Shown: positions 6,666-20,355 of the stretch, one piece after another
How the letters are laid out: each line of letters starts with the position of its first letter
How positions within the stretch are numbered: position 1 is the stretch's first letter
Source of the DNA: Eudoraea sp.
GTDB taxonomy: Bacteria; Bacteroidota; Bacteroidia; Flavobacteriales; Flavobacteriaceae
Assembly: GCA_013041785.1 (NCBI GenBank)
Contig: JABDRK010000214.1
Span: 1-20,942, forward strand
Direction of reading: 5' to 3'
Length of the DNA stretch: 20,942 nucleotides
Translations under genes and position numbers: made by a program
Notes under the pieces: model-generated
What the model was told of the DNA's origin: nothing
Databases searched by the model: none
The model's input: only the letters and a program-made list of their open reading frames with translations

Positions 6666-7100
6666 CTAATTCAGTAAGCGTTTCTGCTTTTCTTGTTTAA
6701 TAACTCTAGTCAACAGGTTGAAAAGCTGTGTTTTCAAATCCCGATAGTCTTCCAGATAGCCTTGCATTAGCTGCAGTAATTCCAGATGGGTTTCCCGGTA
6801 GGCCTTTTCCATTTTGGGCTGGTCTACATCATCAATCATAATCTCTAACTGATTTTCATGAACCTGTACTTTCTTTAAAAGTCTGTCCAATTCATTTTCC
6901 GCATCGAGTATCTCTCCTACCAGTTGCTTGCTTTTATCATAAATTTTATGATTGATGAGTTGTTCAGTGTAGGATTTAACCAATCCGTTCAGAAACCGTT
7001 GTTCATCTTTTATAAACTTCAATTCAGATAACCAGGCTAGCGTGGCGCTGTGCATTTCTTCCGGACTGATCCATTCGATATAGCGAGGTTTTGTTCCCAT
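6666..7100 (-). CDS. Helical coiled-coil protein, paralogue of 7220-7645
   Basis: A 144-residue, charged, almost wholly helical protein with no signal peptide or membrane segment. It resembles its upstream neighbour along its length. 'MHSATLAWLSELKFIKDEQR' pairs with LHAATRSWISSMRFIEDELT. 'HENQL' at 81-85 pairs with HENSL. 'YRETHLELL' and 'LKTQLFNLL' pair with YRDRHRELH and LKTEIFNYA. The pattern suggests a helical bundle or coiled coil that may pair with the paralogue. I do not recognise a named family. It sits 6 bp before the lipoprotein gene and 119 bp after the paralogue. The start ATG gives an N terminus of the same length as the paralogue's. Confidence 0.78.
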   Translation of the reverse strand: MGTKPRYIEWISPEEMHSATLAWLSELKFIKDEQRFLNGLVKSYTEQLINHKIYDKSKQLVGEILDAENELDRLLKKVQVHENQLEIMIDDVDQPKMEKAYRETHLELLQLMQGYLEDYRDLKTQLFNLLTRVIKQEKQKRLLN

Positions 7101-7219
7101 GGTGTTCCGTTTTATATGTATCTATTAAGTTTTCTTTAAGCAAGCCGGTATTGGCCGGATTCCTCAAACATTCCCAAATCCAAATTACCCCGAATTTGCT
7201 TCAGATACCATGACCAAAA

Positions 7220-7645
7220 TCAGCTCGGAGGTTTGCGTTTCTTCAAAACCCCACCGGCATAGTTGAAGATCTCGGTTTTCAGTTTCTGATAATCGGTTTC
7301 AAACAACAGGTACTCAATATGGAGTTCCCGGTGCCTGTCTCTATAGCTTTTACCGCCGGGATGGTCCTTACATTCGAGTACCCCACTTAAACTGTTCTCG
7401 TGTTCCCGGAGCTGTTTGGTGATGTTCTTTTTTTGTTTGTTAATGGTTTGTAGCCGCTCCAGATAATCCTGCAGCCGCTCGAAGAGGTTGGGCGTATTTG
7501 GCTCAAAAACATAGGAGTGCAGCAAATTTTCAATAAACGTCAACTCATCTTCAATAAATCTCATTGAAGATATCCAGCTTCTGGTGGCCGCATGCAATTG
7601 CGAACAGCTCAGCTGTTCCGTACGGATCTGATTTTTTTCTTTCAT
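7220..7645 (-). CDS. Helical coiled-coil protein, paralogue of 6666-7100
   Basis: A 141-residue basic helical protein without export signals, related to the downstream neighbour as described in that entry. The open frame extends upstream to a TTG at 7693. I chose the ATG at 7645 because it places 16 residues before the conserved LHAAT motif, matching the 15 before MHSAT in the paralogue. Two Cys are present (in SCSQ and ECKD), while the paralogue has none. The tail ends KKRKPPS. The gene follows the beta-CASP RNase gene by 68 bp. A role as a helical partner of that RNase or of the ribosome would be a guess from position only. Confidence 0.75.
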   Translation of the reverse strand: MKEKNQIRTEQLSCSQLHAATRSWISSMRFIEDELTFIENLLHSYVFEPNTPNLFERLQDYLERLQTINKQKKNITKQLREHENSLSGVLECKDHPGGKSYRDRHRELHIEYLLFETDYQKLKTEIFNYAGGVLKKRKPPS

Positions 7646-7713
7646 GGCCTGGGGATTTGCGAATAAAATAATTTCCGGGAAGGAAGAATACAATGATATT
7701 GATCAGCAGCTAC

Positions 7714-9081
7714 TTAAAGCCAGAGAGTTACCGATTCATTCAGCTTCGGAATGTGCGGTTTCCATCCAAGTGTATCCCGGATCTTAGAATCAAATCCCTC
7801 CAGGGCTGTAGGTTCCCCATGGATCAAAAATACACCTTCGGGGATGTTTTTAATCGCCCCCATCCATTTCAAAAGGTCGGCCTGGTCTGCATGGGCCGAT
7901 AAGCTCTGCATATGAGAGATTGTAGCTTTTACTTCGTAGTATTTTCCAAAGATCTTGATTTCCGGTTCCCCTTCCAGCAGTCTGCGACCCCGGGTCCCTT
8001 CGGCCTGATACCCAACCAGCAGCACCTGGGTTTCCGGATGATCAATCAATTGCTTGAGATAGGTCAGGATCCTGCCCCCGGTTACCATTCCACTGCCGGC
8101 TATTACGATTTTTGGGCGGGGATCATCTATTACTTCCCAGGTTTCCCGGTAGGAACTTACCAGATTGATATGATTGCACATTGCATGGTACTCTTCCATG
8201 GGCAGTTTGTGACAATTGGGGAAACGCTCAAAAATCTCCAGGACATTTTGCCCCATGGGACTGTCTACGATTATCGGAATATTGGGAATTCTATTGTGTT
8301 TGTAGAGCCGCCACAAGAGGAACATCAGCGACTGCAGTCGTTCCACTGCAAAACTCGGGATCAGTAAACTACCCCGGTTTCTCAATGCGTTATTGGTCAG
8401 CGTAATCAATTGGGATTCCACTTCCTCATCGGGATGCAATTTATTCCCATAGGTACTCTCAATAAACAGGTAGTCTGCCCATTCGGGTTCTTTTGGGGGA
8501 GACAGCAACAAATCTACATATCGGCCCAGGTCGCCTGAGAATAACAAAATGCGGCCATTGATCTCAATTTCAATATAGGTGGAACCAATGATGTGGCCAT
8601 TGTATCTAAATCGGTACCGGATATGTTCAGAAGCCTTTATCCATTCATCTTCTTCGGCAACATGAAACAAGTCCAGGGTACGCTCCGCTTCCTTAACTGT
8701 ATAGAATGGAAGCGCAGGTTTGTGTCTACTGTACCCTTCTCGGTTGGCTTTTTCTGCTTCTTCTTCGTGGATCCTCGCACTGTCTAGTAAAATAATCTCT
8801 GTAATTCCCAGCGTGGGTGCCGTGCCTATAATTTCACCAGCAAAACCTTCTCTGAGTAGCCTGGGCAAATAACCCGTGTGGTCCAAATGACCGTGGGTAA
8901 GGAGTACCAGGTCAATTCCCTGTACATCTACGGGTAAAGGCTTCCAGTTTAATTCGCGGAGCGCCTTTATGCCCTGGAACATCCCACAATCGACCAGAAT
9001 TTTAAGTTCCGGAGTTTCCAGGTAGAACTTGGATCCCGTAACTGTCCCTGAAGCTCCTAAAAACTGTACTTTCACTTGCAT
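7714..9081 (-). CDS. Metallo-beta-lactamase/beta-CASP RNase (YSH1/CPSF-73-like)
   Basis: A 455-residue soluble enzyme of the metallo-beta-lactamase fold with a beta-CASP insertion, as in the RNA-specific nucleases CPSF-73 and archaeal aCPSF. Visible metal ligands are HGHLDH (63-68), His163 in 'YNGHIIGS', and Asp184 in 'FSGDLGRY'. Beta-CASP motifs are A (Glu208 in 'FIESTYG'), B (His397 in 'SLSAHADQADLL') and C (His421 in 'LIHGEPTAL'). The RMMBL-type C-terminal part includes 'VLLVGYQAEGTRGRRLLEG' and 'IFGKYYEVKA'. All catalytic residues are intact. It probably acts as an endo- and/or 5'-exoribonuclease, but which RNA it cuts is unknown. It lies 10 bp after an ATP-cone/nuclease-like gene, inside the USP operon, which points to RNA turnover during stress. 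Confidence 0.92.
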   Translation of the reverse strand: MQVKVQFLGASGTVTGSKFYLETPELKILVDCGMFQGIKALRELNWKPLPVDVQGIDLVLLTHGHLDHTGYLPRLLREGFAGEIIGTAPTLGITEIILLDSARIHEEEAEKANREGYSRHKPALPFYTVKEAERTLDLFHVAEEDEWIKASEHIRYRFRYNGHIIGSTYIEIEINGRILLFSGDLGRYVDLLLSPPKEPEWADYLFIESTYGNKLHPDEEVESQLITLTNNALRNRGSLLIPSFAVERLQSLMFLLWRLYKHNRIPNIPIIVDSPMGQNVLEIFERFPNCHKLPMEEYHAMCNHINLVSSYRETWEVIDDPRPKIVIAGSGMVTGGRILTYLKQLIDHPETQVLLVGYQAEGTRGRRLLEGEPEIKIFGKYYEVKATISHMQSLSAHADQADLLKWMGAIKNIPEGVFLIHGEPTALEGFDSKIRDTLGWKPHIPKLNESVTLWL

Positions 9082-9091
9082 AATTCAGGTC

Positions 9092-9937
9092 TCAATGTTG
9101 GCACAGACTTGCGATCTCCTTCACAATTTTCCGTTTCCTGTTTTCTGATACCCCCAGATGGTCCAGGTAAAAAGTATCCTGCATCAGTTGTCGGCATAGC
9201 ACAACATCTCTGCTAAGCAAAAATTGCTTTTCCCGGGAACTCAACAAGGTAGACACGGTGATGGGGTATAACCCCAGGCGATCGATACGACTTTTCAAAC
9301 TATTTTTTTTCGGATAGTCCCAACTCAGTAAATACAATCCCGCGCACTTTCCGTAGGCGATAGCATCCCGGGTAAAGCGGGTATTGGTCACTACCCAGGC
9401 CTCATCAGGCTGCCGGGTTTTGCTGTACTCATTATCCGGGGACAACTTCACATCTTGGTATCGGGAGTGGATATAGAGCGGGATTTTTACATTGCAATTC
9501 CGCCCCTGTTCCCCGTGAAACTTACATTCTACAAGAATAAGCTTTTGCCCTTTTTCGGCAATTACATCTATTTCGTGTTTTACACAATGTCCCTGAAGCA
9601 CCTTACCCACCTCCGTGCGATATCCCGAGTAATGTAAAATGGCATTTATGAATTTTTCAAAGGGAAATCCGGTAGGGCCCAGTTCATAAATGGCCTTTTT
9701 AAGCTTATAGCGGGATGCCGATATTGGCTTCTTTTTCTTTAACAAGGCATAAGCCCGGTTATAGAGCTCCTTGGTGGTAATGCCTTCATAGAGTTCTCCC
9801 TTTACCTGCTCCAGGATACTTTGAACAAGGTCTGGATTAGCACCACTTCTTTTCAGAGATTGTTTGAGCTTTTCTTCTTTGAAAGGCACGGATTCACCCG
9901 AGAATTTTACAATATGGATTACGTTTTCAGGCATCAA
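9092..9937 (-). CDS. ATP-cone protein fused to a restriction-endonuclease-like domain
   Basis: A 281-residue two-domain protein. Residues about 5-90 are an ATP cone: 'HIVKFSGESVPFKEEKLKQS', then 'GITTKELYNRAYALLKKKK' and 'SASRYKLKKAIYELGPTGF'. ATP cones bind ATP or dATP as allosteric switches in NrdR and class I/III ribonucleotide reductases. Residues about 92-205 look like a PD-(D/E)XK nuclease of the Mrr-like type: 'HEIDVIAEKGQKLILVECKF', with Asp124, Glu137 and Lys139 in the expected D...ExK order. 'EAWVVTNTRFTRDAIAYG' resembles the Mrr tail. I infer a nucleotide-gated nuclease, with activity unproven. Met1 and Met2 are adjacent possible starts. It overlaps no gene, and its 10-bp gap to the RNase gene suggests joint action. 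Confidence 0.85.
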   Translation of the reverse strand: MMPENVIHIVKFSGESVPFKEEKLKQSLKRSGANPDLVQSILEQVKGELYEGITTKELYNRAYALLKKKKPISASRYKLKKAIYELGPTGFPFEKFINAILHYSGYRTEVGKVLQGHCVKHEIDVIAEKGQKLILVECKFHGEQGRNCNVKIPLYIHSRYQDVKLSPDNEYSKTRQPDEAWVVTNTRFTRDAIAYGKCAGLYLLSWDYPKKNSLKSRIDRLGLYPITVSTLLSSREKQFLLSRDVVLCRQLMQDTFYLDHLGVSENRKRKIVKEIASLCQH

Positions 9938-10406: not shown

Positions 10407-11255
10407 TTATTTGTGATCATTGAGTGCCAGTATCGGGATACTGTAATTATAACCCAATTCCTGCACCAGGGGTTTGGAGAGTATCTTTCCCAGGAAGGTA
10501 TGCTTACGGTTAATAAACGCAATCATTTCGCTTTCCCGGCTTTCCACAAAAGCCCCTATCCCCTTATGGATTTTCATATCTTCCAGGGAATGGAAACTGT
10601 GATCAGAGCCCTCGAGTATAGCCGTTAACAATTCGAGATTACTCTCCTGTTCTCTATTCAATTTATTTTCTTTTTTAATATGGAGCACGCGGATGAAAGC
10701 CTTGTGCAAACGGGCGATTTCCAGCAGGTATTTCAATTCTCTTCGCTTATAGGTCACCTTGTAGTCTGTTGGGAATACAATTTCCCGGGGAAGACTGTAA
10801 CGATAATCCTGGGGAACTGCCAATACCGGGCATTGGGTTACTCCTTCCATCACGTTGATAGTATTGGTGCCGAAGATGATACTTTCGGCCCCGGTGATTC
10901 CCTTAGTACCCATAACAACCAGGTCAATATCGTATTGGGCAATGGTGCTTTTCATGGCAAACAAAAGTGAATTAAAGGTTGCAATGGTGTGGTAATGGTG
11001 CCTGGGATTGTCAAAATGCAGGTCAAGGGTATCGAGCAGTTTGGCCAAGCCCGTTTCGGACTCTTCCCGGGCAGCTTCATAGGCGATATCACCGGGTTCT
11101 GGTGGCGTCAGACTATCTATGCTGTAGCCACCGATACGGAAAGCATTGAGAAAATAGAAATCACAAGGAACCTCTTTATAGAGCGCCACCGCGTAGCGAA
11201 TAGCATTCAGGGCATTATTTGAGAAATCTGTCGGTAGCAGTATCCTTCTGTTCAT
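10407..11255 (-). CDS. Tandem-domain universal stress protein (USP-A)
   Basis: A 282-residue cytosolic protein of two USP domains. Domain 1 begins 'RILLPTDFSNNALNAIRYA' and carries the ATP-binding signature G-2x-G-9x-G(T): Gly116, Gly119, Gly129 and Thr130. It is therefore a nucleotide-binding type, like MJ0577 or UspE/F, and unlike the non-binding UspA type. Domain 2 starts near 'EIVFPTDYKVTYKRRELK' (158-175) and has lost the glycine signature, with 'AFINRKHTFLGKILSKP' in its place, so it is probably structural. It follows USP-B by 63 bp. That gap contains its own box-controlled promoter, so it can be made from the long operon or on its own. Of the USPs here it is closest to USP-D: both have Pro-Arg-His before domain 1's third strand and the shared YKRRELK. 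Confidence 0.93.
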   Translation of the reverse strand: MNRRILLPTDFSNNALNAIRYAVALYKEVPCDFYFLNAFRIGGYSIDSLTPPEPGDIAYEAAREESETGLAKLLDTLDLHFDNPRHHYHTIATFNSLLFAMKSTIAQYDIDLVVMGTKGITGAESIIFGTNTINVMEGVTQCPVLAVPQDYRYSLPREIVFPTDYKVTYKRRELKYLLEIARLHKAFIRVLHIKKENKLNREQESNLELLTAILEGSDHSFHSLEDMKIHKGIGAFVESRESEMIAFINRKHTFLGKILSKPLVQELGYNYSIPILALNDHK

Positions 11256-11278: not shown

Positions 11279-11321
11279 TAAATTTAAGTGCCTGATCGGC
11301 AGAATCCCATGATATATATCA
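11279..11321 (-). promoter_or_regulatory. CRP/FNR-like box and -7 element for USP-A
   Basis: TGATATATATCA at 11310-11321 is a perfect palindrome of FNR form (TGAT-N4-ATCA). Exactly 33 bp from its centre, on the minus strand, lies TAAATTTA (11279-11286), a close match to the -7 consensus TAnnTTTG. The last triplet of the box is also the TGA stop codon of USP-B, so this is an internal promoter inside the USP operon. The geometry fits a class II activator at about -41.5. TAGTATTG at 11273-11280 is an alternative -7 element, 39 bp away. Confidence 0.7.
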
Positions 11322-12167
11322 GTAAGATTCCGGGATGATCAGAAAGGGCACATCAATCTCAAAACTGATTCTTTTAATGACCCGCTCACGCATGAGGGTG
11401 CCCAGGAAGCCATGACGATAATAGATCATAGCTAGCATCCCGATCCCCAGTTCTTTAATAAAGGTGTTGATCACCTCTGTTTTGCTGGAAAAATCGGGCA
11501 TCCAGTGAATGGTATGCCTGATATCTCCCAGATAGTCACGCAGTGTATTGAGATTGGCTTTCTGCTTATTGGACAGTCTCCCCTCTTCGTTTATATGGAT
11601 AATCCTGACTGCGGCATTGCAAACTTTTGCCATATAAGTCAGCGGATGCAACACCTGAGCATCATAGTTGTGCTTATAGTCTGTGGTAAAGGCTATTTCA
11701 AAAGGGATTTCACATTCCTTTTCCCTGGGAACCACCAAAACAGGGCATTTGGGCAAGGCCCTTACCGTCTTGATCGCACTGCTCCCCATAAACACGGGAA
11801 TTGCATCAGTATGACCTGTATTGCCCATTACAACCAAATCAATTTCAAATTCCTCAACCACTTGTGTAATGACATCTGGCAAATGTCCTTTTCTAAGTAT
11901 GGTCTTGCGTAACTGTTTTGGGTTCGCTGCATCCAGATTAATACGATGGAAAGCCTGATCCAGGCCTTCCGTGGCTTCCTCTTGTAACTGCACGAGGAGG
12001 TTTCTGTTATCCCCTTTTTGCCGGCTGGGGCTTACCAACTCCGAATGTTCAGAGTAAACATTCAAAAGGTAAATCCGACAATCGACTTCCTTAAAAAGCT
12101 GGGTAGCATAGTAAAGAGCATTGTACGCGTTATTCGAAAAATCGGTAGGTACCAGTATGTTTTTCAT
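11319..12167 (-). CDS. Tandem-domain universal stress protein (USP-B)
   Basis: A 282-residue two-domain USP. Domain 1 starts 'KNILVPTDFSNNAYNALYYA' and has the nucleotide signature Gly115, Gly118, Gly128, Ser129. The loop 'GNTGHTDAIPVFMGSS' is the most diverged of the set, with Asn-Thr replacing the usual Thr-Lys or Thr-Arg. Domain 2 opens with 'EIAFTTDYKHNYDAQVL', where the first Pro of FPTDY has become Thr. It lacks the glycine signature. It starts only 2 bp after USP-C stops, so translation is probably coupled. Its stop codon TGA lies inside the regulatory palindrome of the next gene. Divergence of both signature loops suggests a specialised member, perhaps with a different nucleotide preference. 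Confidence 0.92.
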   Translation of the reverse strand: MKNILVPTDFSNNAYNALYYATQLFKEVDCRIYLLNVYSEHSELVSPSRQKGDNRNLLVQLQEEATEGLDQAFHRINLDAANPKQLRKTILRKGHLPDVITQVVEEFEIDLVVMGNTGHTDAIPVFMGSSAIKTVRALPKCPVLVVPREKECEIPFEIAFTTDYKHNYDAQVLHPLTYMAKVCNAAVRIIHINEEGRLSNKQKANLNTLRDYLGDIRHTIHWMPDFSSKTEVINTFIKELGIGMLAMIYYRHGFLGTLMRERVIKRISFEIDVPFLIIPESY

Positions 12168-12169
12168 GA

Positions 12170-13021
12170 TCAGTGGACATTAACAGCATCCGGGATCACC
12201 ATAAACGGAATCGTAACATGGAAGCCTATTTTTTTGATGACAGGTTCAATGAACAGACTTTCCAGGAAGGTGTGTTTGTTCTGAATCATTGCCAGTATCT
12301 GAACCTCCCGGGTTTTCTGGAAATTGTTTATTCCAGAGATAATCTCCTGACTGGGAACATCATGGAAGGCATGGGCTCTTTCTCCTATCAGGCCGCTGAG
12401 CTTTTTTCGATTATTTTCTTGATTTTCAGTAAGTTCATATCCCGTGGAGATATGCAGGACTTCAATACGCGATTCATGCAGATCAGTAATATTAAACAAG
12501 GCAGAAAAATGATCCTGGGTAAAATCAACCTCATAGTCAGTTGGGAAGAGAATTTCCTTGGGTTCCTTATAGTTGTAGATGGCAGGCACTGCAATTACGG
12601 GACATGTAGCTTTTTTGACCAGATGAACGGTATGGGTGCCCAGGAATATCTCTTTGGCCCCGGTTGCCCCCTGCGTACCCATAATGATCAGGTCCGCTTT
12701 TTCTTTCTTCACCATATCCAGTACCTCGTCAACCAGAATGTTAAACGCAGAGTGGGTAATATAGGTGTGCTTTGCATTCTTAAATTCAGTTTCAGCACGC
12801 TTTTTCATCTCGGAGAGGTGTTCGTCAGAATCCGTTTGATAAAAATCACCCAACCCAATTTGTCCCGGACTGTGCAGAATATACTCGGTCTGATAGATAG
12901 CCGGGGTAAAGGTATGCATCAGGTAGAATGTACAAGTTTCCTCCTTAAACAACTTAGCAGCGTATGCCAGGGCGTGGTACGCATTCTCGGAGAAATCGGT
13001 AGGGAGAATAATTTTTTTCAT
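12170..13021 (-). CDS. Tandem-domain universal stress protein (USP-C)
   Basis: A 283-residue two-domain USP. Domain 1 opens 'KKIILPTDFSENAYHALAYA' and has a canonical signature in 'GTQGATGAKEIFLGT' (Gly115, Gly118, Gly128, Thr129). Domain 2 opens 'EILFPTDYEVDFTQD' and ends 'IPFMVIPDAVNVH' without a glycine signature. The linker between strands 2 and 3 of domain 1 is longer and acidic ('FYQTDSDEHLSEMKK'). It sits 17 bp after USP-D and 2 bp before USP-B, with no box of its own, so it depends on the promoter upstream of USP-D. Confidence 0.93.
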   Translation of the reverse strand: MKKIILPTDFSENAYHALAYAAKLFKEETCTFYLMHTFTPAIYQTEYILHSPGQIGLGDFYQTDSDEHLSEMKKRAETEFKNAKHTYITHSAFNILVDEVLDMVKKEKADLIIMGTQGATGAKEIFLGTHTVHLVKKATCPVIAVPAIYNYKEPKEILFPTDYEVDFTQDHFSALFNITDLHESRIEVLHISTGYELTENQENNRKKLSGLIGERAHAFHDVPSQEIISGINNFQKTREVQILAMIQNKHTFLESLFIEPVIKKIGFHVTIPFMVIPDAVNVH

Positions 13022-13038
13022 CGCAAGGGGTTTTTAGT

Positions 13039-13884
13039 TTATCTCGAAAGATTCTGCAATACCAGAAATGGGATTTTTATGTGCAGTCCAAGCCAGTCGA
13101 GGGTCGACTGGTAGAGCATGTGTTCCAGGTGGGAATGTCTTGAATTCACCATAACCAGCAGATCAATATCATTATGCAGGATATATTTCGTAATAGCCAC
13201 GGTTTTGTCTTTATCCGGGGTGGCTTCAAATTTGATTCGGGCTTTATCCAGGCACTCCGCAAGGAACAAACGATTGTCTTCCTGACGCAGGGAGGGCTTT
13301 TTCAAGGGATCGATATACAGCATATGGATGGTGGACCTGAAGGAACCAGTCATCTCACATAGTAGTTTCAATTCTCTCCTTTTATAAGGAACCATATAAT
13401 TGGTAGGAAACAAGAGTTCCTTGGGGGGGTGATAGGCATAGTTTTCAGGAATGGCCAGCACAGGGGATTGCACGTATTTCAAAACCTGCAGGGTGTTGCT
13501 GCCAAATGTCATCTCCCTGTCGTTAGTCTCCCCCCGTGTACCCATGACCACTATGTCCATGTTCTCCGCATTTACCAGGTCGTTTATCTCATCCGTAAGG
13601 GTGCCAAAGGCAGATATGGTCTTGAATTTATGCCTGGGATTCGGGGCGTATTCCCGGATGTCTTCCAAAATTTTTACTAGTGCTTTTTGTGATTTTGCAT
13701 AGGTAACCTCCTTGAGTTCTTCCAGAAAAGGACGTTTAACAACCTGGTCTTGTTGATAGACTTCATCGGCATAGGCATGCAGAATGCATATATCGCTTCG
13801 CTCGTATTTGAAGATTTGACAGGCGTATTTTAGTGCATTAAATGCATTATCAGAGAAATCCGTGGGTACAACTATCTTCCGCAT
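13039..13884 (-). CDS. Tandem-domain universal stress protein (USP-D), first gene of the long operon
   Basis: A 281-residue two-domain USP. Domain 1 opens 'RKIVVPTDFSDNAFNALKYA', with signature loop 'GTRGETNDREMTFGSN' (Gly115, Gly118, Gly128, Ser129). The acidic insertion within the loop is unlike the other copies. Domain 2 begins 'ELLFPTNYMVPYKRRELK', where Asp of FPTDY is Asn, and keeps no glycine signature. It leads the ten-gene minus-strand run ending at 6003 and diverges from thioredoxin across a 132-bp region holding one central regulatory palindrome that can serve both genes. Confidence 0.93.
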   Translation of the reverse strand: MRKIVVPTDFSDNAFNALKYACQIFKYERSDICILHAYADEVYQQDQVVKRPFLEELKEVTYAKSQKALVKILEDIREYAPNPRHKFKTISAFGTLTDEINDLVNAENMDIVVMGTRGETNDREMTFGSNTLQVLKYVQSPVLAIPENYAYHPPKELLFPTNYMVPYKRRELKLLCEMTGSFRSTIHMLYIDPLKKPSLRQEDNRLFLAECLDKARIKFEATPDKDKTVAITKYILHNDIDLLVMVNSRHSHLEHMLYQSTLDWLGLHIKIPFLVLQNLSR

Positions 13885-13923
13885 AATGTGAAGCCTATAT
13901 GTTTAATCGTTCCAGACTGCCAT

Positions 13924-13997
13924 TAAAATTACTCTAAGGCCCAGTCCTAAACCATGATATAAATCAGTTAAGATTCTGTCCCAAATAAATACCTTAG
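13924..13997. promoter_or_regulatory. Bidirectional CRP/FNR-like promoter between USP-D and thioredoxin
   Basis: The near-palindrome TGATATAAATCA (13955-13966) lies in the middle. TACCTTAG (13990-13997, plus strand) is 33 bp from its centre toward thioredoxin. TAATTTTA (13924-13931, minus strand) is 33 bp from its centre toward USP-D. Both are one or two bases from the -7 consensus TAnnTTTG. A single bound dimer could therefore activate both transcripts at class II spacing. Leaders would be about 15 nt for thioredoxin and about 35 nt for USP-D. Confidence 0.72.
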
Positions 13998-14016
13998 TCC
14001 AGGAAATTCGAATAAA

Positions 14017-14313
14017 ATGAAAAGTAGTTTTAAAAAACTGGTTGCTTCAGATAAGCCAGTGCTTGTGGACTTTCACGCAGAATGGTGTGGCCCCTGCAAA
14101 ATGCTTGCCCCCATACTTAAGGAGGTAAAAGAGCAGATGGGTGAAAACATTAAAATCTTAAAGATTGATGTAGATAAGAACCAGCCAATAGCCGCCCGAT
14201 ATCAGATTCGTGGAGTCCCCACCATGTTGTTGTTCCGAAATGGCGAAATCGTTTGGAGGCAGTCCGGAGTTGTTCCAAAGGAGCAGATCCTAAAAGCCAT
14301 TGAAGCGGCATAG
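14017..14313 (+). CDS. Thioredoxin
   Basis: A 98-residue single-domain thioredoxin. The redox motif WCGPC (Cys24, Cys27) and cis-proline Pro68 in 'RGVPTMLLF' are intact, as is the buried Asp18 in 'LVDFHAEW'. It lacks a signal peptide, so it is cytosolic and reduces protein disulphides using thioredoxin reductase. It is slightly shorter than the usual 105-110 residues, with a trimmed first strand. His20 before AEW is less common than Trp or Phe. It is divergent from the USP operon and shares its central regulatory palindrome, which suggests that it is a stress-dedicated copy and not the housekeeping trxA. The transcript ends toward the hairpin at 14339-14358. Confidence 0.95.
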   Translation: MKSSFKKLVASDKPVLVDFHAEWCGPCKMLAPILKEVKEQMGENIKILKIDVDKNQPIAARYQIRGVPTMLLFRNGEIVWRQSGVVPKEQILKAIEAA

Positions 14314-14333
14314 CCCAAATTCCCGATACATTG

Positions 14334-14358
14334 AAAAAGCCCTGAAGTGATTCAGGGC
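14334..14358 (-). terminator. Intrinsic terminator after USP-E (hairpin also usable by thioredoxin)
   Basis: Perfect 8-bp arms GCCCTGAA (14339-14346) and TTCAGGGC (14351-14358) flank a GTGA loop. On the minus strand the stem is followed at once by TTTTT (14338-14334), a classical intrinsic terminator 13 bp past the USP-E stop. On the plus strand the same stem lies 25 bp after the thioredoxin stop but without a T-run, so it is stronger for USP-E. Confidence 0.88.
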
Positions 14359-14371
14359 CTCAACTAAATAA

Positions 14372-15211
14372 CTACTCATGGAGTACCAGGAACGGTACCT
14401 CCGTGTGATAGCTTATTTCTTCTACAGCCGGACGGAACAGTATCCGCTGGAAAAAGTTTAGATTTTTGGCAACCATCGCAATCATATCAATATCGCGACT
14501 CTCAACAAAACACTGTACAGCGGTCTCAAGCTTGCTGCCAGTAATGGTATGGAAACTATGCGATACACCTCTCAGATAATCGTGAAGGAATTCCTTGTTT
14601 TGTATCTGTTCCCGTGTCAATTCTTCCCCGCGCTTGGTTATATGCAATACCCTTAGGTTGGCTTCGTTCCTGTTGATGACACCAATAAGGGTGTCCAGCA
14701 CCTTTACATCGTAATTGATAAAGTAATCTGTTGGGAACGCAATCTCTTTTGGGATTTTATACTCGGCTTCCTCAGGAACAGCCAGAAGCGGGCATTTTAC
14801 TTTGGTGATTACATCACCGGTGTTGCTGCCAAGGGATACCTTTTTTAGTCCCGAGGCTCCCTTAGTTCCCATAATGATAAGGTCTATATGCTTATCCTGA
14901 ATCTCCCTTTTAATGCTGTCCACAAAGAAATCATAAAGGGCTATGGTAATGAAGGTATGCCTTTCATTGGGAAGGGTTTTATTAATTTGTTCTAAGAGTT
15001 CTTTCAGGTTTTTTTCACTTTCCTGAAGCATGGTCTCGCGCAGCATATCTGTACTGGCCTTAATTGAAGTTCCGGCTCCTGAATACGGGGGTAAGGGATT
15101 TATATGGAGCAGGTAAATCGTACAGCGCTCTTTTCGGAATAATTCCAGTCCGTAAGTAATGGCATTCCATGCGTTAGACGAGAAATCTGTTGGAATTAAT
15201 ATGCGTAACAT
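14372..15211 (-). CDS. Tandem-domain universal stress protein (USP-E)
   Basis: A 279-residue two-domain USP. Domain 1 opens 'LRILIPTDFSSNAWNAITYG' and has the canonical loop 'GTKGASGLKKVSLGSN' (Gly115, Gly118, Gly128, Ser129). Domain 2 opens 'EIAFPTDYFINYDVKVLD' and ends 'EVPFLVLHE', with the glycine signature replaced by 'AMVAKNLNFFQRILFRP'. A Gly-Pro-rich linker ('PPYSGAGTS') lies at 41-49. It is the last gene after the LOV kinase and the receiver-CRP regulator, 89 bp downstream of the regulator, with its own box-controlled promoter and a strong terminator. It may thus be both co-transcribed with its regulators and induced separately by them. Confidence 0.93.
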   Translation of the reverse strand: MLRILIPTDFSSNAWNAITYGLELFRKERCTIYLLHINPLPPYSGAGTSIKASTDMLRETMLQESEKNLKELLEQINKTLPNERHTFITIALYDFFVDSIKREIQDKHIDLIIMGTKGASGLKKVSLGSNTGDVITKVKCPLLAVPEEAEYKIPKEIAFPTDYFINYDVKVLDTLIGVINRNEANLRVLHITKRGEELTREQIQNKEFLHDYLRGVSHSFHTITGSKLETAVQCFVESRDIDMIAMVAKNLNFFQRILFRPAVEEISYHTEVPFLVLHE

Positions 15212-15235
15212 TTCGGGGTAAGTTTAAATAGGACA

Positions 15236-15278
15236 TAAAAGTAACATACCAAAGCTACCCTGTAAATGACGATTATCA
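15236..15278 (-). promoter_or_regulatory. CRP/FNR-like box and -7 element for USP-E
   Basis: The minus strand reads TGATAATCGTCA across 15278-15267, an imperfect palindrome of the TGAT-N4-(A/G)TCA form. TACTTTTA (15243-15236) is exactly 33 bp from its centre and close to TAnnTTTG. The implied leader is about 20 nt. The box lies in the 89-bp gap after the regulator gene, so it gives USP-E a private promoter. Confidence 0.7.
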
Positions 15279-15300
15279 TGTGCCCATGTTTCCCGGGCCA

Positions 15301-16353
15301 CTAACTGATATTCCGAAGGCGTTCTTCATCCAGGATTTGAATATCCCGGTCACAGATATCGATCAGGCCTTCCTTTTTAAAACTGGAAAGTGTGCGGATA
15401 AGCGTTTCTGTTGCCATTCCGGCTACCCCGGCAAGGTCGCTCCTCAGGATATGTATAGGCCCCTTGGCGTTGGACTGTAGTTTGTCTGCAAACCTTAAAA
15501 TGGTGTTGGCTGTTTTCTTTCGCACAGAACCATAGGCCATCTGAAGCAACTGATCCCGTGCATCGGTAAGGCTTTCGGCCATCAATTGCATCAGTTCCAT
15601 CACCAGGTCAGGGTTTCTAAATAACACTTCTTTGAGGGTGTTTTTGGCAATCCCTACACAACGCGTATCCTCCATGGCAGTTGCGTATTCCGGGTAGGGA
15701 ACGTTCCTGGTGAAACTGGTAAAGCCAAAGAAATCGTCAGGCTTGTGAATACCCGTGATCAGTTCCTTTCCCTGTTCTTCAAGTTTATGCGTTTTTACCA
15801 CCCCAGACACCACCAGGTAAACGATATTGGAATTATCACCCTCTCTATAAATGGTTTCCCCAAGCTTGAATTTATAATCCTTCCCATTGTCGAAAATAAA
15901 ATTCTTGAGTTCGTGGAGGTTTTGTATGTCTGCTCCCCTGAATATTTCGGAAGTTTTGGCCTCCCGGTCAAGATCCCTTAAGATGGCCATTTTCGCCATG
16001 CGGCTTTCTATAGCACCTATTAACTCTCCTTCTTCAAATGGTTTGGTGATATAGTCATCAGCTCCAAGTTCCATGCCTTTGCGAACGTCCCGTCGCTCGG
16101 TCTTGGCTGAAAGAAAAATAAAGGGGATGCCTTTGGTAGCCTCATTCTGTGAGAGTTTCTCAAGAACGGCATAACCGTCTAGTTCCGGCATCATTATGTC
16201 ACAGATAATAACATCCGGATTTCGCTCCAGGGCAAGCTGTATGCCCCTTTTTCCATTAGGTGCCGTAAACACTTGATAATTGGAAAGTTCCAATAACTCT
16301 GCAGTGCTTTCGCGCAGTACGGTGTCGTCCTCAATTAGCAGCACTTTCTTCAT
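15301..16353 (-). CDS. Response regulator: receiver domain fused to CRP/FNR-type DNA-binding module
   Basis: A 350-residue transcription regulator. Residues 1-120 are a receiver with acidic pocket Asp9/Asp10, phosphoacceptor Asp52 ('VIICDIMMPELDG'), Ser82 and Lys104 ('YITKPF'). Residues about 140-265 are a cyclic-nucleotide-binding-like barrel ('GETIYREGDNSNIVYLVVSG'). Residues about 275-345 are the CRP-type winged helix with recognition segment 'GMATETLIRTLSSFKKEGLI'. Glu316 and Arg320 match CRP Glu181/Arg185 and FNR Glu209/Arg213, which read the TGA core. Ile319 replaces the FNR Ser. Only Cys51, Cys232 and Cys334 exist, so there is no FNR Fe-S cluster. The input is thus phosphorylation, presumably from the LOV kinase encoded 57 bp upstream. 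TGA-N6-TCA boxes at neighbouring promoters are its likely targets. Confidence 0.93.
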   Translation of the reverse strand: MKKVLLIEDDTVLRESTAELLELSNYQVFTAPNGKRGIQLALERNPDVIICDIMMPELDGYAVLEKLSQNEATKGIPFIFLSAKTERRDVRKGMELGADDYITKPFEEGELIGAIESRMAKMAILRDLDREAKTSEIFRGADIQNLHELKNFIFDNGKDYKFKLGETIYREGDNSNIVYLVVSGVVKTHKLEEQGKELITGIHKPDDFFGFTSFTRNVPYPEYATAMEDTRCVGIAKNTLKEVLFRNPDLVMELMQLMAESLTDARDQLLQMAYGSVRKKTANTILRFADKLQSNAKGPIHILRSDLAGVAGMATETLIRTLSSFKKEGLIDICDRDIQILDEERLRNIS

Positions 16354-16410
16354 TGGACATCGGCATTCTTAGCTATGCTTCTAAGTTACGAATTATTATT
16401 GCCTTTTCCT

Positions 16411-18303
16411 TCAGGCACAGGCCTTATCATCTATGGGAAATACGAGAGTAAAGGTGGTACCTTCATTTTCCCTGCTGCTGAAACTAATCGATCCTCCAAG
16501 GTTATCGACATGGGATTTTACAATGTTAAGCCCGATTCCTGTACCCTGGGTAAGCAGTACGTTTTCGGCCCGGAAATAGCGTTCAAATATAAAGCGCTGG
16601 TCTTTTTCGGGGATTCCAATTCCCTCGTCTATTACCTTTATGACCAGCATATCATCCCCTGCTGTTACCTGGATATCGATTAGGGTATCCTCCGGAGAAT
16701 ATTTTATGGAATTATAGAGCAGGTTAGTCAACGCAAGGGAAACAATTTTCTCGTCCTGGCAAACCGTAAGATCATCTACATCCTTCGGATAGTTGATACG
16801 CTGCCCGCTTTTCAGCATCATATTGGCGTTGTAAACAACCTCATTGATTACTTTGCTCAATGAGAATTTAGTCAGGTTATACAACTCTTTTCCTTTTTCA
16901 AACCGTTCAATGGAAAGGAAATCGTTAAGAATATTGTTGAGGTGCTTTACCTCCCTTTTTATGGTCTTTAAATGCCTGTTCCTTTTCTCCTGACTTTCGG
17001 TTTCCTGGTATTTACCGACCAGTGTTGCCGAAGTCAGAATGGCACTTAGGGGTGTTTTAAACTCATGAGAAACCATAGATAAAAATTTGGTTTTCAACTC
17101 ATTGAGTTCAATTTCCCGCGACAGTGCTTCCTGCAGCTGCCTGGTCCTTTCTTCAACGGTGGCCTCCAGGCGATCCATATAGTTGCGTTTTTCTGTGATA
17201 TCCAGAATGATGCAGATAATAACCCGATTATCGCCCTTTTTTGAAGATTGGAGGTGAACTTCTACCGGGTATTCAGAACCGTCCTTGCGCTTCAGAAGTG
17301 TCTCCAGTATAATCTTTTCCCGACTTCTTCTGAAAATAGGTTCAAGTGCTTTGTGAAATTTAGCTTTGTTATATTGAGGCAACAGGGCGAGCAAGGACTT
17401 TCCCCGCAGTTCCTCAAGTGTGTATCCGGAGTTTATACAAGCTCCAAAATTGGCATGGCTGATCTTGAGGTTGTCTGCCTCCAGCACATAAATCTCGTTC
17501 AGGGATTCATTGAAAATCCGAACCAGGTAATTAACCTCCTGTTCGATATTTACCCGCAGGGTAATATCGTTTTGTATCCCGATAAAATGGGTTATGATGC
17601 CGTCCTCATTCTTAATGGGATTAATAGACACCTCGTTCCAGAAAAGGGTGCCGTCCTTTCTGTAATTTCGAACCTCAACCTGGCAACTCTCTCCTTTTTT
17701 TATGGCATTTCTCATGACCTGTACCCCTTCCTGATTACGGTCCTGATTCTGCAGAAAACGACAATTCCGGTTCAGAATTTCTGAGCGGGAATAGCCCGTT
17801 ATTTTCTCAAAGGCGCGATTGGCATAGATTATCGGATTGTCTGGCAGCAGGGCATCGGTTATTACAATACCGTTGTGTGCTGAATCGATTGCCTCGGTTT
17901 GCAGATTAAAGCTCTGCTGAAATTCCACTTCCTGGCTGATGTCGCGCACAAGCGCCAGGACATAATTGCGTTCATAAAGTTCAAAAGGGTGCAGGTCGAC
18001 CTTAAGGGGAAATTCCTCACCGGATTTTCGCTGGCCAAACAGGCATCTGTCCTCAACCATTTCCCCAGTTTTGGAGGATTTAAAGTATTTAGTGGTGTGT
18101 TCCTTATGTACTTTTTTAAATCGGTTAGGGATCAGGATGTTTAGCGATTGGCCAATAAGTTCCTCCCTGGTATATCCGAAGAATTTCAGTGCACGCCCGT
18201 TAATTGAAACTATCTCGTGTTCCCGGTTTACCACTATGATCCCTTCTGAAATCGCATCAGAAAGCAAGCGAAAAACACTACTGTCTTTCTCAAATTTACG
18301 CAT
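16411..18303 (-). CDS. PAS-LOV-PAS histidine kinase, probable blue-light photoreceptor
   Basis: A 630-residue soluble kinase without membrane helices. PAS-1 spans about 10-122. PAS-2 (about 135-250) is LOV-like: 'NRNCRFLQNQ' holds Cys181, the residue that forms the flavin adduct in LOV photoreceptors, with Arg182 and Gln185. Flavin contacts Asn213 ('RNYRKDGT'), Asn223 ('FWNEVSINP') and Gln244 ('FIGIQNDIT') are all in place. PAS-3 spans about 260-372. A coiled coil (373-405) leads to HisKA with His413 in 'MVSHEFKTPLSAI'. HATPase boxes are NLLYNSIKYS (Asn527, Asn531), DEGIGIP (559-565), FERYFR and GTGIGL (587-592). Blue light would modulate autophosphorylation. The next gene, the receiver-CRP fusion, is the likely partner. 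PAS-1 and PAS-3 may sense other cues. The leader has a poor TACAGTTA -7 candidate at 18395-18402, 32 bp from the box at 18425. Confidence 0.92.
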   Translation of the reverse strand: MRKFEKDSSVFRLLSDAISEGIIVVNREHEIVSINGRALKFFGYTREELIGQSLNILIPNRFKKVHKEHTTKYFKSSKTGEMVEDRCLFGQRKSGEEFPLKVDLHPFELYERNYVLALVRDISQEVEFQQSFNLQTEAIDSAHNGIVITDALLPDNPIIYANRAFEKITGYSRSEILNRNCRFLQNQDRNQEGVQVMRNAIKKGESCQVEVRNYRKDGTLFWNEVSINPIKNEDGIITHFIGIQNDITLRVNIEQEVNYLVRIFNESLNEIYVLEADNLKISHANFGACINSGYTLEELRGKSLLALLPQYNKAKFHKALEPIFRRSREKIILETLLKRKDGSEYPVEVHLQSSKKGDNRVIICIILDITEKRNYMDRLEATVEERTRQLQEALSREIELNELKTKFLSMVSHEFKTPLSAILTSATLVGKYQETESQEKRNRHLKTIKREVKHLNNILNDFLSIERFEKGKELYNLTKFSLSKVINEVVYNANMMLKSGQRINYPKDVDDLTVCQDEKIVSLALTNLLYNSIKYSPEDTLIDIQVTAGDDMLVIKVIDEGIGIPEKDQRFIFERYFRAENVLLTQGTGIGLNIVKSHVDNLGGSISFSSRENEGTTFTLVFPIDDKACA

Positions 18304-18424
18304 AAATCAAAGGTAAGGCTTTTACTGTTTAAAGTCCTGCGTTTTGTACCCTAAGAGGGCCGTATTAAATGTAATCAGGCAGGTATAGCATACATAACTG
18401 TAACTCAATTATCATGGGTTAATA

Positions 18425-18467
18425 TGACAAGTGTCATAGGAATTATCTTTCTTCTCACTTATGTTTC
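18425..18467 (+). promoter_or_regulatory. CRP/FNR-like box and -7 element for the HMA-like/TerB-like pair
   Basis: TGACAAGTGTCA (18425-18436) has perfect arms that extend to TATGAC and GTCATA (18423-18438). TATGTTTC (18460-18467), one base off TAnnTTTG, lies 33 bp from the box centre, giving a leader of about 12 nt. The box lies in the divergent region ahead of the LOV kinase, so feedback on the kinase gene is possible but less well supported. Confidence 0.72.
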
Positions 18468-18483
18468 CTCAAAATCCTAGAAA

Positions 18484-18729
18484 ATGGAAGCATTTGTTCG
18501 CCTAAGCAATCTCAAAAATTTACATGACAGTAAACGTATAGAACGCAACCTGCATAGAATTTTGGATGTGAGCCTCATCAGTATAGACATTCAGGATCAG
18601 GCCTTGCGGTTTCACTATGATGAACCGGGGGTATATGAAGAAGTGGTTCGCGAATTAAAGCGTCTGGGAAACCCAGTGATCAAATGCATTTACAGAGAAA
18701 AAGATAAGCTCATACCAACCTCTCAGTAA
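18484..18729 (+). CDS. Small HMA-fold-like protein lacking the CxxC metal site
   Basis: An 81-residue protein with the beta-alpha-beta-beta-alpha-beta pattern of heavy-metal-associated domains: 'MEAFVRLSNLKN', a helix, 'VSLISIDIQDQALRFHYDEP', a helix 'VYEEVVRELKRLG', then 'NPVIKCIY'. The usual MxCxxC loop is replaced by LSNLKNLHDSK, and the only cysteine is Cys68, so it probably does not bind copper or zinc in the normal way. It has no export signal. It is the first gene of a pair, one base before the TerB-like gene, and has its own box-controlled promoter. Its role in the stress response is unknown. The fold assignment rests on pattern, not on a search. Confidence 0.72.
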   Translation: MEAFVRLSNLKNLHDSKRIERNLHRILDVSLISIDIQDQALRFHYDEPGVYEEVVRELKRLGNPVIKCIYREKDKLIPTSQ

Positions 18730-18730
18730 T

Positions 18731-19120
18731 ATGGAAAATACAGCATTGAACACAACCTTGTTTGAAAATTTAGGAAAAGTATTTTATGCTATTGCAAATG
18801 CAGACCGCAACCTGCATGAAAATGAAATAGCACGATTAAAAGCGGAAATTGAAAAATACTGGAAGCCCATCTTTGCAGAAGCACCATACTCCATGGCGTA
18901 TTACATCTGGCATGCCTTTGAGCGTTGCAGGAGCAATAAGGTAGCAGCCGATAAAGCTTTTGAAGAATTTGCTTTATATTTTGAGCAGGAGCCGGGGCCA
19001 TTTACCGCCGAAATCCGTGAGTTGATCCTGGATACAGCGAATGCTATTGCCGCAGCTTATGCAGATAAAAACAAATCCGAACTGATCCTGCTGGCAAAAT
19101 TGCAGTTATTGCTCAAATAA
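18731..19120 (+). CDS. TerB-like all-helical protein, function unknown
   Basis: A 129-residue helical cytosolic protein. 'LGKVFYAIANADRNLHENEI' followed by 'ARLKAEIEKYW' resembles the first helices of the tellurite-resistance TerB fold, where an acidic turn (here Asp-Arg-Asn-Leu-His-Glu-Asn-Glu) precedes a helix. The end 'ILDTANAIAAAYADKNKSEL' repeats a similar Ala-rich helix plus acidic turn, suggesting internal symmetry. TerB-like domains have been linked to metal sensing and to membrane-associated stress complexes. Tellurite itself need not be involved. It starts one base after the HMA-like gene stops, so the two are translated together. It ends 9 bp before the convergent USP-F gene. Confidence 0.75.
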   Translation: MENTALNTTLFENLGKVFYAIANADRNLHENEIARLKAEIEKYWKPIFAEAPYSMAYYIWHAFERCRSNKVAADKAFEEFALYFEQEPGPFTAEIRELILDTANAIAAAYADKNKSELILLAKLQLLLK

Positions 19121-19129
19121 CACCACTTC

Positions 19130-19966
19130 CTATACCTGTATGGTAAGTACCGGTATTTCTGCCCTGTTGGCTACATCTTCTCCGATACTTCCTTTGAAAA
19201 AGTGAGCTAATCCCTTGCGCCCGTGGGTAGGCATGGCAATAATATCGGCTCCCACAGCTTCCGCATACTGGAACAAGCCTCCTTCAATGGAGTAGTCGCA
19301 AACAACATGAGAAGTGACGTTAGCAGGAATCTCCATGCGGTGGGCTACCTTAAAAAACAGGTCCCGCTCCTTGTAAATTTCCGCCGAGCTTTTAAATTTT
19401 TCGGTAGGTAAATTCACATAAACGACATGTATATCAACCGGCCAACGAGAAAAAAACTTTAGTGCGCTGGTATAGGCACTGAGATCTTCAATCTTATAAT
19501 CACAGGCATAGACTACGCGATGCGGTTTGTATTCCTGGCGCTGTTTCTTGACCACAAGCACAGGTATCTTTGCCGTCCGAACTACTTTTTCCGTATTGGA
19601 ACCCACAAAAATCCCACTAATTCCGCTGGCTCCATGAGATCCCATAACAATGAGGTCGGCTTTCACCTCCATAGCTACTTCATTGATCTCACTAAAGATT
19701 TTGTAATTCTGGACCATCTCATGAACTTTTAGATCTTTGAGGTAGGGTTGATCCCTGAATTCCTGAAATCGTTTTTGCGTAAGCTTCATATAATAATGGG
19801 CTTCCGCAGCTTCCTGTGATGAATCCTTCGTCAGTATAGCTTCCGAGAGGCCCATCATGTGGAGCAGTACAAGTTCAGACTTATTTTGCCTTGCGAGGGA
19901 TGCTGCAACCTCCAACGCATAGGTCGAATGTTCTGAAAAATCTGTTGGTACCAGAATTTTGTTCAT
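19130..19966 (-). CDS. Tandem-domain universal stress protein (USP-F), both halves near-canonical
   Basis: A 278-residue two-domain USP of a different subgroup from the other five. Domain 1 opens 'NKILVPTDFSEHSTYALEVA' and has 'GSHGASGISGIFVGSN' (Gly109, Gly112, Gly122, Ser123). Domain 2 retains a near-complete signature, 'MPTHGRKGLAHFFKGSIGED' (Gly249, Gly259, Ser260), with only the first Gly replaced by Pro246. It lacks the FPTDY motif of the other copies and has 'VVYACDYKIEDLSAYTSALK' instead. Two nucleotide sites per chain are therefore possible. It lies 22 bp downstream of the ribosome hibernation factor, so the two are very likely co-transcribed. It is the clearest link here between USPs and ribosome hibernation. 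Confidence 0.93.
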   Translation of the reverse strand: MNKILVPTDFSEHSTYALEVAASLARQNKSELVLLHMMGLSEAILTKDSSQEAAEAHYYMKLTQKRFQEFRDQPYLKDLKVHEMVQNYKIFSEINEVAMEVKADLIVMGSHGASGISGIFVGSNTEKVVRTAKIPVLVVKKQRQEYKPHRVVYACDYKIEDLSAYTSALKFFSRWPVDIHVVYVNLPTEKFKSSAEIYKERDLFFKVAHRMEIPANVTSHVVCDYSIEGGLFQYAEAVGADIIAMPTHGRKGLAHFFKGSIGEDVANRAEIPVLTIQV

Positions 19967-19988
19967 GTATAGAAATTTTATGACTAGG

Positions 19989-20288
19989 TCAATGCTTGTT
20001 AAAGACTTCTTTGCGTTTTTTTAGCTGGCCTTCAAGTTCCTTTATGGTAGCGGCGGCCGCCTTTTCAAAATTGTCCTCACTTGTTTTAGCAAATAGCCTG
20101 GGGCCGGGTGCACTTAGTTGAATTTCGCAAATCTTGCCTTTACCCGTGGGATCATTTTCCAATTTAAAATAAACATCTGCACTAATGATCCATTCAAATT
20201 TTTTCTCCAGTTTTCTGAGCTTGTTAGTTACTATATTGCTCATGGACTCACTGGTAGGCATTTGGACATATTGAATATTTATAGTCAT
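19989..20288 (-). CDS. Short-form ribosome hibernation promoting factor (HPF/RaiA family)
   Basis: A 99-residue protein covering the S30AE/HPF domain only, so it is the short form. 'MTINIQYVQMPTSESMSNIV' gives the first strand and helix. 'LRKLEKKFEWIISADVYFKL' is the typical basic helix and second strand, and 'KICEIQLSAPGPRLFAKTSE' precedes 'DNFEKAAAATIKELEGQLKK', the second helix. Family members bind the 30S decoding centre, silence ribosomes in stationary phase, and in the short form help make 100S dimers. Without the long-form C-terminal dimerisation domain, another factor may be needed. The gene precedes USP-F by 22 bp and has a TGA-N6-TCA box and -7 element ahead of it. Confidence 0.93.
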   Translation of the reverse strand: MTINIQYVQMPTSESMSNIVTNKLRKLEKKFEWIISADVYFKLENDPTGKGKICEIQLSAPGPRLFAKTSEDNFEKAAAATIKELEGQLKKRKEVFNKH

Positions 20289-20312
20289 ATGTAAAAAGAT
20301 TTAGATAGTAAT

Positions 20313-20355
20313 TAAAAGTACTTGCAATTCGAGTAGCATAAAATGACATTTATCA
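20313..20355 (-). promoter_or_regulatory. CRP/FNR-like box and -7 element for HPF/USP-F
   Basis: The minus strand reads TGATAAATGTCA across 20355-20344. TACTTTTA (20320-20313) lies 33 bp from its centre and is identical to the -7 element of USP-E. The implied leader is about 20 nt. The two promoters also share the TTTA-rich bases that follow the box. Confidence 0.72.

Follow-up and report, generated by a model that had tools for sequence, protein, structure and literature searches.

Activators of the CRP/FNR superfamily occupy a site near -41.5 at class II promoters, and in the CRP promoters of E. coli this site overlaps the -35 region. FNR proper recognises TTGAT-N4-ATCAA through an E-x-x-S-R helix and has four cysteines that hold a 4Fe-4S cluster. 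In the FixJ design of rhizobia, a separate receiver-LuxR protein switches on a separate fixK gene. In the DosR/DevR system of mycobacteria, a haem-sensing kinase controls many universal stress protein (USP) genes in hypoxia through a LuxR-type regulator with an unrelated site. Promoters of Bacteroidota follow the form TTG/TAnnTTTG. The stretch analysed here, a contig of 20,942 nucleotides from Eudoraea sp. (JABDRK010000214.1 of assembly GCA_013041785.1; hereafter the window), carries TGA-N6-TCA boxes at a fixed distance from -7-like elements, together with a fusion of receiver, cNMP_binding and HTH_Crp_2 domains (RR-Crp; 15301–16353, minus strand) and an adjoining histidine kinase gene (16411–18303, minus strand). 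We read the boxes as class II CRP/FNR-type operators that would be recognised, mainly for oxygen shortage, by RR-Crp and by an FNR-like protein encoded on another contig (C212) of the same genome, and we give this reading a probability of roughly 0.7.

Five boxes are centred at 11315.5, 13960.5, 15272.5, 18430.5 and 20349.5 of the window, and six -7-like 8-mers each lie 33 bp away, centre to centre; an earlier note on this DNA had reported them, and every coordinate holds. Box 1 (TGATATATATCA, 11310–11321, minus strand) and its -7 element TAAATTTA (11279–11286) precede UspA (10407–11255). The TGA of this box (11319–11321) doubles as the stop codon of the USP gene upstream (11319–12167). Box 2 (13955–13966) is common to two divergent genes, UspD on the minus strand (13039–13884; -7 element TAATTTTA, 13924–13931) and thioredoxin on the plus strand (14017–14313; weak -7 element TACCTTAG, 13990–13997). 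UspE (14372–15211) follows box 3 (TGATAATCGTCA, 15267–15278, minus strand) and TACTTTTA (15236–15243), and an 81-amino-acid (aa) gene (18484–18729) with a 129-aa gene (18731–19120) follows box 4 (TGACAAGTGTCA, 18425–18436, plus strand) and TATGTTTC (18460–18467). Box 5 (TGATAAATGTCA, 20344–20355, minus strand), again with TACTTTTA (20313–20320), lies before HPF (19989–20288) and then UspF (19130–19966). Oriented with transcription, the boxes read TGAT-N4-RTCA at five of the six promoters and TGAC-N4-GTCA at 18430.5, exactly as had been claimed. The proposed 8-mer form TAnnTTT(A/G/C) stands for A (four of five TAnnTTTx elements) and C (one) and falls for G (none).

The strict pattern, TGAN6TCA followed by TAnnTTT, occurs five times in the window at a spacing of 23 (box-N23-TAnnTTT, i.e. 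33 bp between centres), once at 30 and never at 15–22, 24–29 or 31. In 100 shuffles that preserve dinucleotides, the mean was 0.03 and the maximum 1. The fixed spacing to the -7 element and the CRP/FNR-type half-sites claimed in the earlier note are thus supported. Outside the window, a genome scan set beforehand as a test of the pattern gave 27 sites in the draft genome (2.37 Mb, 442 contigs, 87.9% complete) against 2 for a reversed-pattern control. When the spacing was left free between 10 and 36, 25 of the 44 matches listed fell at 23 and at most three at every other spacing, with 7 for the backwards control. In the fetched loci, none of the 27 sites lies across a frame of at least 100 aa. 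As 22 of the 27 sites lie outside the window, the regulon is not local, as had been supposed, but genome-wide; it is of a microaerobic type. The genes downstream of the sites beyond the window include two further USPs, a radical-SAM HemN-type protein, a cytochrome c, an RseC protein, a POR-type oxidoreductase with a divergent ferredoxin, a TonB protein and a DoxX-like protein slightly below the Pfam cut-off. Two sites, on C377 and at a contig end (C262:107), have no convincing gene, and the one on C391 is of a different box type, described below.

Conservation was assessed in 43 loci of related species (L032–L074; 815,721 bases; 41 with flavobacterial titles and 2 titled only Bacteroidetes), all centred on RR-Crp as its best matches. 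These loci contain 184 sites at spacing 23, compared with 0–9 at any other single spacing between 8 and 40 and 3 at spacing 23 in the reversed control, so that a single activator site-core promoter distance is kept, as class II activator promoters need. The gene cluster is syntenic in many of the loci. Footprints within 200 bp upstream were counted for orthologues matching at more than 50 bits, with the alignment starting no more than 25 residues from the N-terminus and the 200 bp present in the locus; the USP letters are best-hit names. They were found for UspE (42/46), UspD (20/20), the 129-aa gene (23/25) and HPF (11/12), and for UspA (12/27), UspC (9/20), a 218-aa gene (6/16), the 142-aa gene at 7220–7648 (4/7), the 144-aa gene at 6666–7100 (4/14), the kinase (1/8) and the 81-aa gene (1/1). 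Within 200 bp upstream of RR-Crp (0/43), the ATP-cone gene (0/20), the beta-CASP gene (0/19) and a 140-aa gene (0/11), which served as negative controls from the same loci, there were none. The pattern thus passes the conservation check that had been proposed for it. In a sample of 158 genomes from the phylum, the 21 genomes from other orders of the same class had 59 sites against 3 in the control, and genomes of other classes had 0–3 sites each.

Boxes serving two promoters recur as well: of seven other divergent Trx/Usp loci, six have TAnnTT 33 bp away to either side of the box. Among 161 boxes flanked by TAnnTTT at this distance on one side or both, 14 also have TAnnTT at 33 bp on the opposite side, compared with a mean of 3.0 at other spacings. 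A proposed A on both outer flanks of divergent boxes was unsupported (left flank 6/15, distal flanks 51/190). The boxes at spacing 23 are intergenic in 165 of 168 cases and those at other spacings in 92 of 100; the latter are mostly the same boxes, so the comparison separates little.

A logo was built from 218 sites selected on TGAY-N4-RTCA-N23-TAnnTT, in which Y, R and TAnnTT are imposed by the selection and the remainder is free. It reads (A)(A)(C/A)TGAY-W4-RTCAT-(T/A)-(T/G), 20 bp, TAnnTT(T)(A/G). T directly follows the inner half-site in 94% of the sites, which would fit a common -33 TTG-like element, and the box runs straight into the -33-like T-(T/A)-(T/G), consistent with contact to the -35/-33 element as at class II promoters; 20 bp separate this element from TAnnTT. 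With the 8-mer placed at about -12 to -5, the centre of the box would come to -41.5, the class II position.

The box core and the low-oxygen targets resemble the FNR/Anr/FixK regulons of Proteobacteria. They differ in that the site here is [C/A]TGAY...RTCAT and not TTGAT...ATCAA (T precedes TGA in only 11% of the 218 sites), the helix is E-x-x-I-R and not E-x-x-S-R, the promoter is of the TAnnTTTG type and USP genes are many. In the 43 loci, TTGA-N6-TCAA gave 50 boxes (18 in reversed sequence) and none at spacing 23. The geometry is shared with the class II promoters of E. coli CRP, but TGTGA-N6-TCACA, the site of this cAMP receptor, is absent from the 43 loci, and CRP-type boxes were rejected for this reason. 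The FNR table of PMC2908626 includes a heavy-metal P-type ATPase, cytochrome c oxidase subunits I and II, UspA, FNR/FixK and an "oxygen-independent..." entry, and its site table includes hemN. By these comparisons, which cover the site, its fixed spacing, its conservation, the gene set and two regulators with the same E-x-x-I-R residues, the regulon is real, conserved, genome-wide, class II-type and of the CRP/FNR kind. Its box is altered, its promoter is that of Bacteroidota, and of its two candidate activators one is a receiver fusion. It looks like the counterpart, in this group, of the classic oxygen-response regulon.

Four proteins of the genome contain HTH_Crp_2. RR-Crp refines the earlier claim that a CRP/FNR-type regulator is encoded among the genes: such a protein is present, and its domains make it a response regulator next to a kinase. 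Its recognition helix, TETLIR from residue 315, has E316, I319 and R320 in all 44 RR-Crp proteins aligned, so that I replaces the S of FNR (E-T-I-S-R is visible in the FNR chain sequence), and the receiver Asp52 is kept in 43 of them, with one gap. A structure model (mean pLDDT 80, pTM 0.40) has residues 315–327 helical and added nothing more. The C212 protein combines HTH_Crp_2 with full-length matches to solved Crp/Fnr proteins and aligns with the same E, I and R. Both proteins belong to the CRP/FNR superfamily by their cNMP-binding-like domain and Crp-type HTH. Of the four cluster cysteines of FNR proper, the alignment shows three in the C212 protein (C7, C10 and C109), and the RR-Crp sequence contains no C-x2-C motif. 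The two remaining HTH_Crp_2 proteins differ: that on C391 has E-x-x-S-R, and that on C56 lacks both E and I. On C212 the regulator gene lies next to a USP gene and to a frame resembling, by eye, a heavy-metal P-type ATPase; locus numbers in PMC2908626 put the same kinds of genes close around an FNR/FixK gene. The C212 protein is at least as good a candidate as RR-Crp for the window boxes, because it has the same recognition residues and the inner bases of these boxes lean its way.

The kinase next to RR-Crp, its likely partner, consists of a FixL-like PAS domain (His66), a LOV-like PAS domain, a third PAS domain, HisKA and HATPase. Of the 17 PDB matches of the first PAS, 11 carry the name FixL or DosP; a haem PAS protein and YddU account for two others. 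The putative haem-binding column, which we take to be the known position of the proximal His, holds His in 38 of 42 aligned kinases (the window and 41 relatives). By sequence, the domain matches the haem PAS with proximal His of FixL, so that oxygen as the main signal is something we infer from sequence and gene set. The second PAS has the photoactive-type Cys motif NCRFLQ, which recurs in 5 of the 41 relatives (L032, L052, L059, L064 and L072); L057 has NCSFLQ in its place. The relatives' kinases vary in length between about 370 and 631 aa; 26 have no more than 420 aa, 8 have 467–516 and 7 have 625–631. A FixL-like PAS kinase, a receiver protein and a CRP/FNR-type activator of microaerobic genes are shared with the FixL-FixJ-FixK route. 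Here, some kinases add the LOV-like domain, TTGA-N6-TCAA is missing at spacing 23 in the 43 loci, and the receiver is fused to the Crp part; as receiver and Crp-type output are one protein, there is no separate FixJ step.

The number of sites was compared with the presence of the two regulators in 246 Flavobacteriales genomes, 53 of which form the window's family. The cut-offs were chosen after the scores had been seen: RR-Crp orthologues at E ≤ 1e-105, with weak FNR-like matches in G057, G164 and G240 counted as absent. The family has 662 sites against 23 in the control. Mean numbers per genome are 27.7 with RR-Crp and the FNR-like protein (n = 9), 12.2 with RR-Crp only (n = 8), 12.8 with a more distant RR-Crp and the FNR-like protein (n = 11) and 7.2 with the FNR-like protein only (n = 24). 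The genome with neither (n = 1, G236) has no site, and dropping the T after the box there gives a single match, of the C391 box type. Outside the family, where FNR-like matches are more distant (about 30–41% identical), the 89 genomes in which such a protein is present total 364 sites against 32 in the control (1.16 per Mb), and the 104 without one total 24 against 14 (0.20 per Mb). Within family f6 the corresponding counts are 99 against 9 (28 genomes) and 2 against 2 (23 genomes).

Six genomes with RR-Crp only contain 95 sites and six with the FNR-like protein only contain 87, and gene content was read from a fetched subset of these. Taking a long ATG frame near the -7 element as the downstream gene, which was lacking at 4/76 and 6/63 sites of the two fetched sets, boxes precede USP, HemN-type, COX1, FixS, ScdA, cbb3 and POR genes in the RR-Crp-only genomes, and USP, HemN-type, cbb3, FixS and ScdA genes as well as the FNR-like gene itself in the FNR-only genomes. 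Because sites persist in genomes with only one of the two, either regulator seems able to support the regulon.

In the mechanism that we favour, a dimer of a CRP/FNR-type activator would bind [C/A]TGAY-N4-RTCAT centred some 41.5 bp upstream of the transcription start; with the inner half in contact with the -33 region, it would recruit RNA polymerase to the Bacteroidota-type -7 element TAnnTTT(A/G). Both the C212 protein and RR-Crp, the latter under the control of the neighbouring kinase that carries the FixL-like and LOV-like domains, would read the site; the main signal would be oxygen shortage, and USPs, HPF, thioredoxin and genes of microaerobic respiration and haem would be induced. Several observations weigh against this reading. 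Neither regulator can be assigned to any given promoter. The RR-Crp homologues of loci L075–L111 mostly keep the helix residues (E in 36, I in 31 and R in 37 of 37), yet these loci have a weaker peak with only 19 sites at spacing 23, so the helix alone is no predictor of the box. Conservation of the thioredoxin arm is weak (7/22 with a footprint, 5/22 at another spacing), and footprints are rare at UspB (2/23) and UspF (3/16). Lineage may partly lie behind the site counts: only one family genome lacks both regulators, the FNR-like-negative genomes outside the family are smaller on average (half are 0.3–0.6 Mb), and the single FNR-like-positive genomes of families f8 and f14 have no site. The inner bases also differ. 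Among fetched sites with T after the box (71 RR-Crp-only, 51 FNR-only), A stands beside TGAY in 75/102 half-sites of the FNR-only genomes and 49/142 of the RR-Crp-only genomes; the value is 8/10 in the window, 28/48 in its genome and 176/318 in the 43 loci. The window boxes thus lean to the FNR-like protein in this respect, and RR-Crp may therefore matter less here than its position suggests.

The same lean is what recommends the FNR-like protein as the sole activator, with RR-Crp having other or overlapping targets and an incidental position, although single genomes overlap in their A fraction (0.00–0.63 for RR-Crp-only, 0.50–0.88 for FNR-only). The site excess outside the family tracks this protein, and FNR-only genomes still have boxes before USPs. 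We nevertheless consider a sole FNR-like activator unlikely: the six RR-Crp genomes without it (G240, with a best match of 6e-27, being counted as having none) together keep the site before USP, HemN-type, FixS and cbb3 genes, and the gene cluster is syntenic with RR-Crp. A local two-component regulon read by RR-Crp alone, close to the picture in the earlier note, is more doubtful still. The adjacency and synteny with box-bearing genes and the sites kept where the FNR-like protein is missing would suit it, but the sites are genome-wide, and four genomes without RR-Crp at E 1e-50 (G160, G200, G216 and G228) share the box, its spacing and many of the kinds of gene behind it. RR-Crp as the only reader is unsupported, since sites persist in genomes without it.

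It is very improbable that another member of the superfamily, such as a nitric-oxide regulator of the HcpR/NnrR/DNR type or a carbon-status regulator of the MalR/Cur type, reads the boxes. PMC8510549 did predict carbon-availability sensing (MalR-like) for CRP/FNR homologues of a Flavobacteriales metagenome-assembled genome. Against this, the HcpR/DNR boxes TTGACnnnnGTCAA, GTAACnnnnGTTAC and CTTGATnnnnATCAAG given in PMC1274295 do not fit, as T seldom precedes TGA in the 218 sites (11%) and TTGA-N6-TCAA is absent at spacing 23 from the 43 loci; moreover, genes of respiration and haem abound in the gene set, and the helices of the C391 and C56 proteins differ. Lone matches to the motif are common, with 15 TGAN6TCA in the window, and would by themselves suggest chance or AT-rich promoter composition; as the source of the whole pattern this has a negligible probability and is refuted by the shuffle counts (5 observed, 0.03 expected) and the reversed-pattern counts (2 against 27 in the genome, 23 against 662 in the family). 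A bolder form of the two-regulator reading holds that an FNR-like protein and a FixJ-FixK fusion phosphorylated by a FixL-like kinase are interchangeable activators acting through one operator at one position in the low-oxygen regulon of Flavobacteriaceae, with a LOV domain added in some lineages. We put this forward tentatively, as somewhat less than an even chance. If it is true, oxygen and, in LOV-bearing lineages, blue light would act on one common set of promoters, those of USP, ribosome-hibernation and respiration genes, and the regulon would outlast the loss of either regulator.

Among the literature matches listed, no title or abstract opening describes such a regulon, most subscription journals being outside the scope of the search. 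The operator, the spacing rule and the gene list offer a testable basis for work on how a large group of environmental bacteria regulates its genes at low oxygen. The geometry suggests that activators may meet the Bacteroidota promoter as in class II promoters of Proteobacteria despite the different -7 element, and the kinase and receiver-Crp pair points to a shortened FixL-FixJ-FixK route. Shared control is also a possible reason for USPs, a hibernation factor and thioredoxin sharing one cluster.

The gene set fits the stress and dormancy functions named in the earlier note, with USPs, HPF and thioredoxin behind the boxes. Pfam gave Usp in all three USP proteins scanned (genes starting at 10407, 13039 and 19130), and it also matched thioredoxin, the S30AE/HPF protein, RR-Crp and the kinase with three PAS stretches; genes without a domain scan were named by eye. 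The 81-aa and 129-aa genes, labelled HMA-like and TerB-like in that note, have no Pfam match; a copper-chaperone-like match of the former (24 bits) is far under the curated cut-off of 77.

Looser boxes lie on the minus strand at 7694–7705, with TATTTTAT at 7663–7670, and at 7211–7222, with TAATTTGG at 7180–7187. They precede the small genes 7220–7648 and 6666–7100 (minus strand), whose proteins have no Pfam match and by eye resemble paralogues; some relatives' orthologues have a box at the same spacing. The gene at 9092–9937 (minus strand) has ATP-cone and Mrr-type nuclease-like Pfam matches, adjoins a beta-CASP metallo-hydrolase gene (7714–9081) in the syntenic cluster and has no box of its own. 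On contig C176 (L004), a box separates a cytochrome c gene from a divergent neighbour, Rrf2-like by eye, with TAATTTGC 33 bp away on the Rrf2-like side. A different box, TGACYNNRGTCACTG(C/T)A, has the same 33-bp spacing on contig C391 (L019, L030) and in L112 and L130. It precedes a YgaP-like membrane gene in the window's genome and in L130 (by eye in the latter), and in the window's genome it adjoins the Crp protein with the helix REVVSR. These boxes probably form a separate regulon, because one of them is the sole match in G236, the genome without both main regulators.

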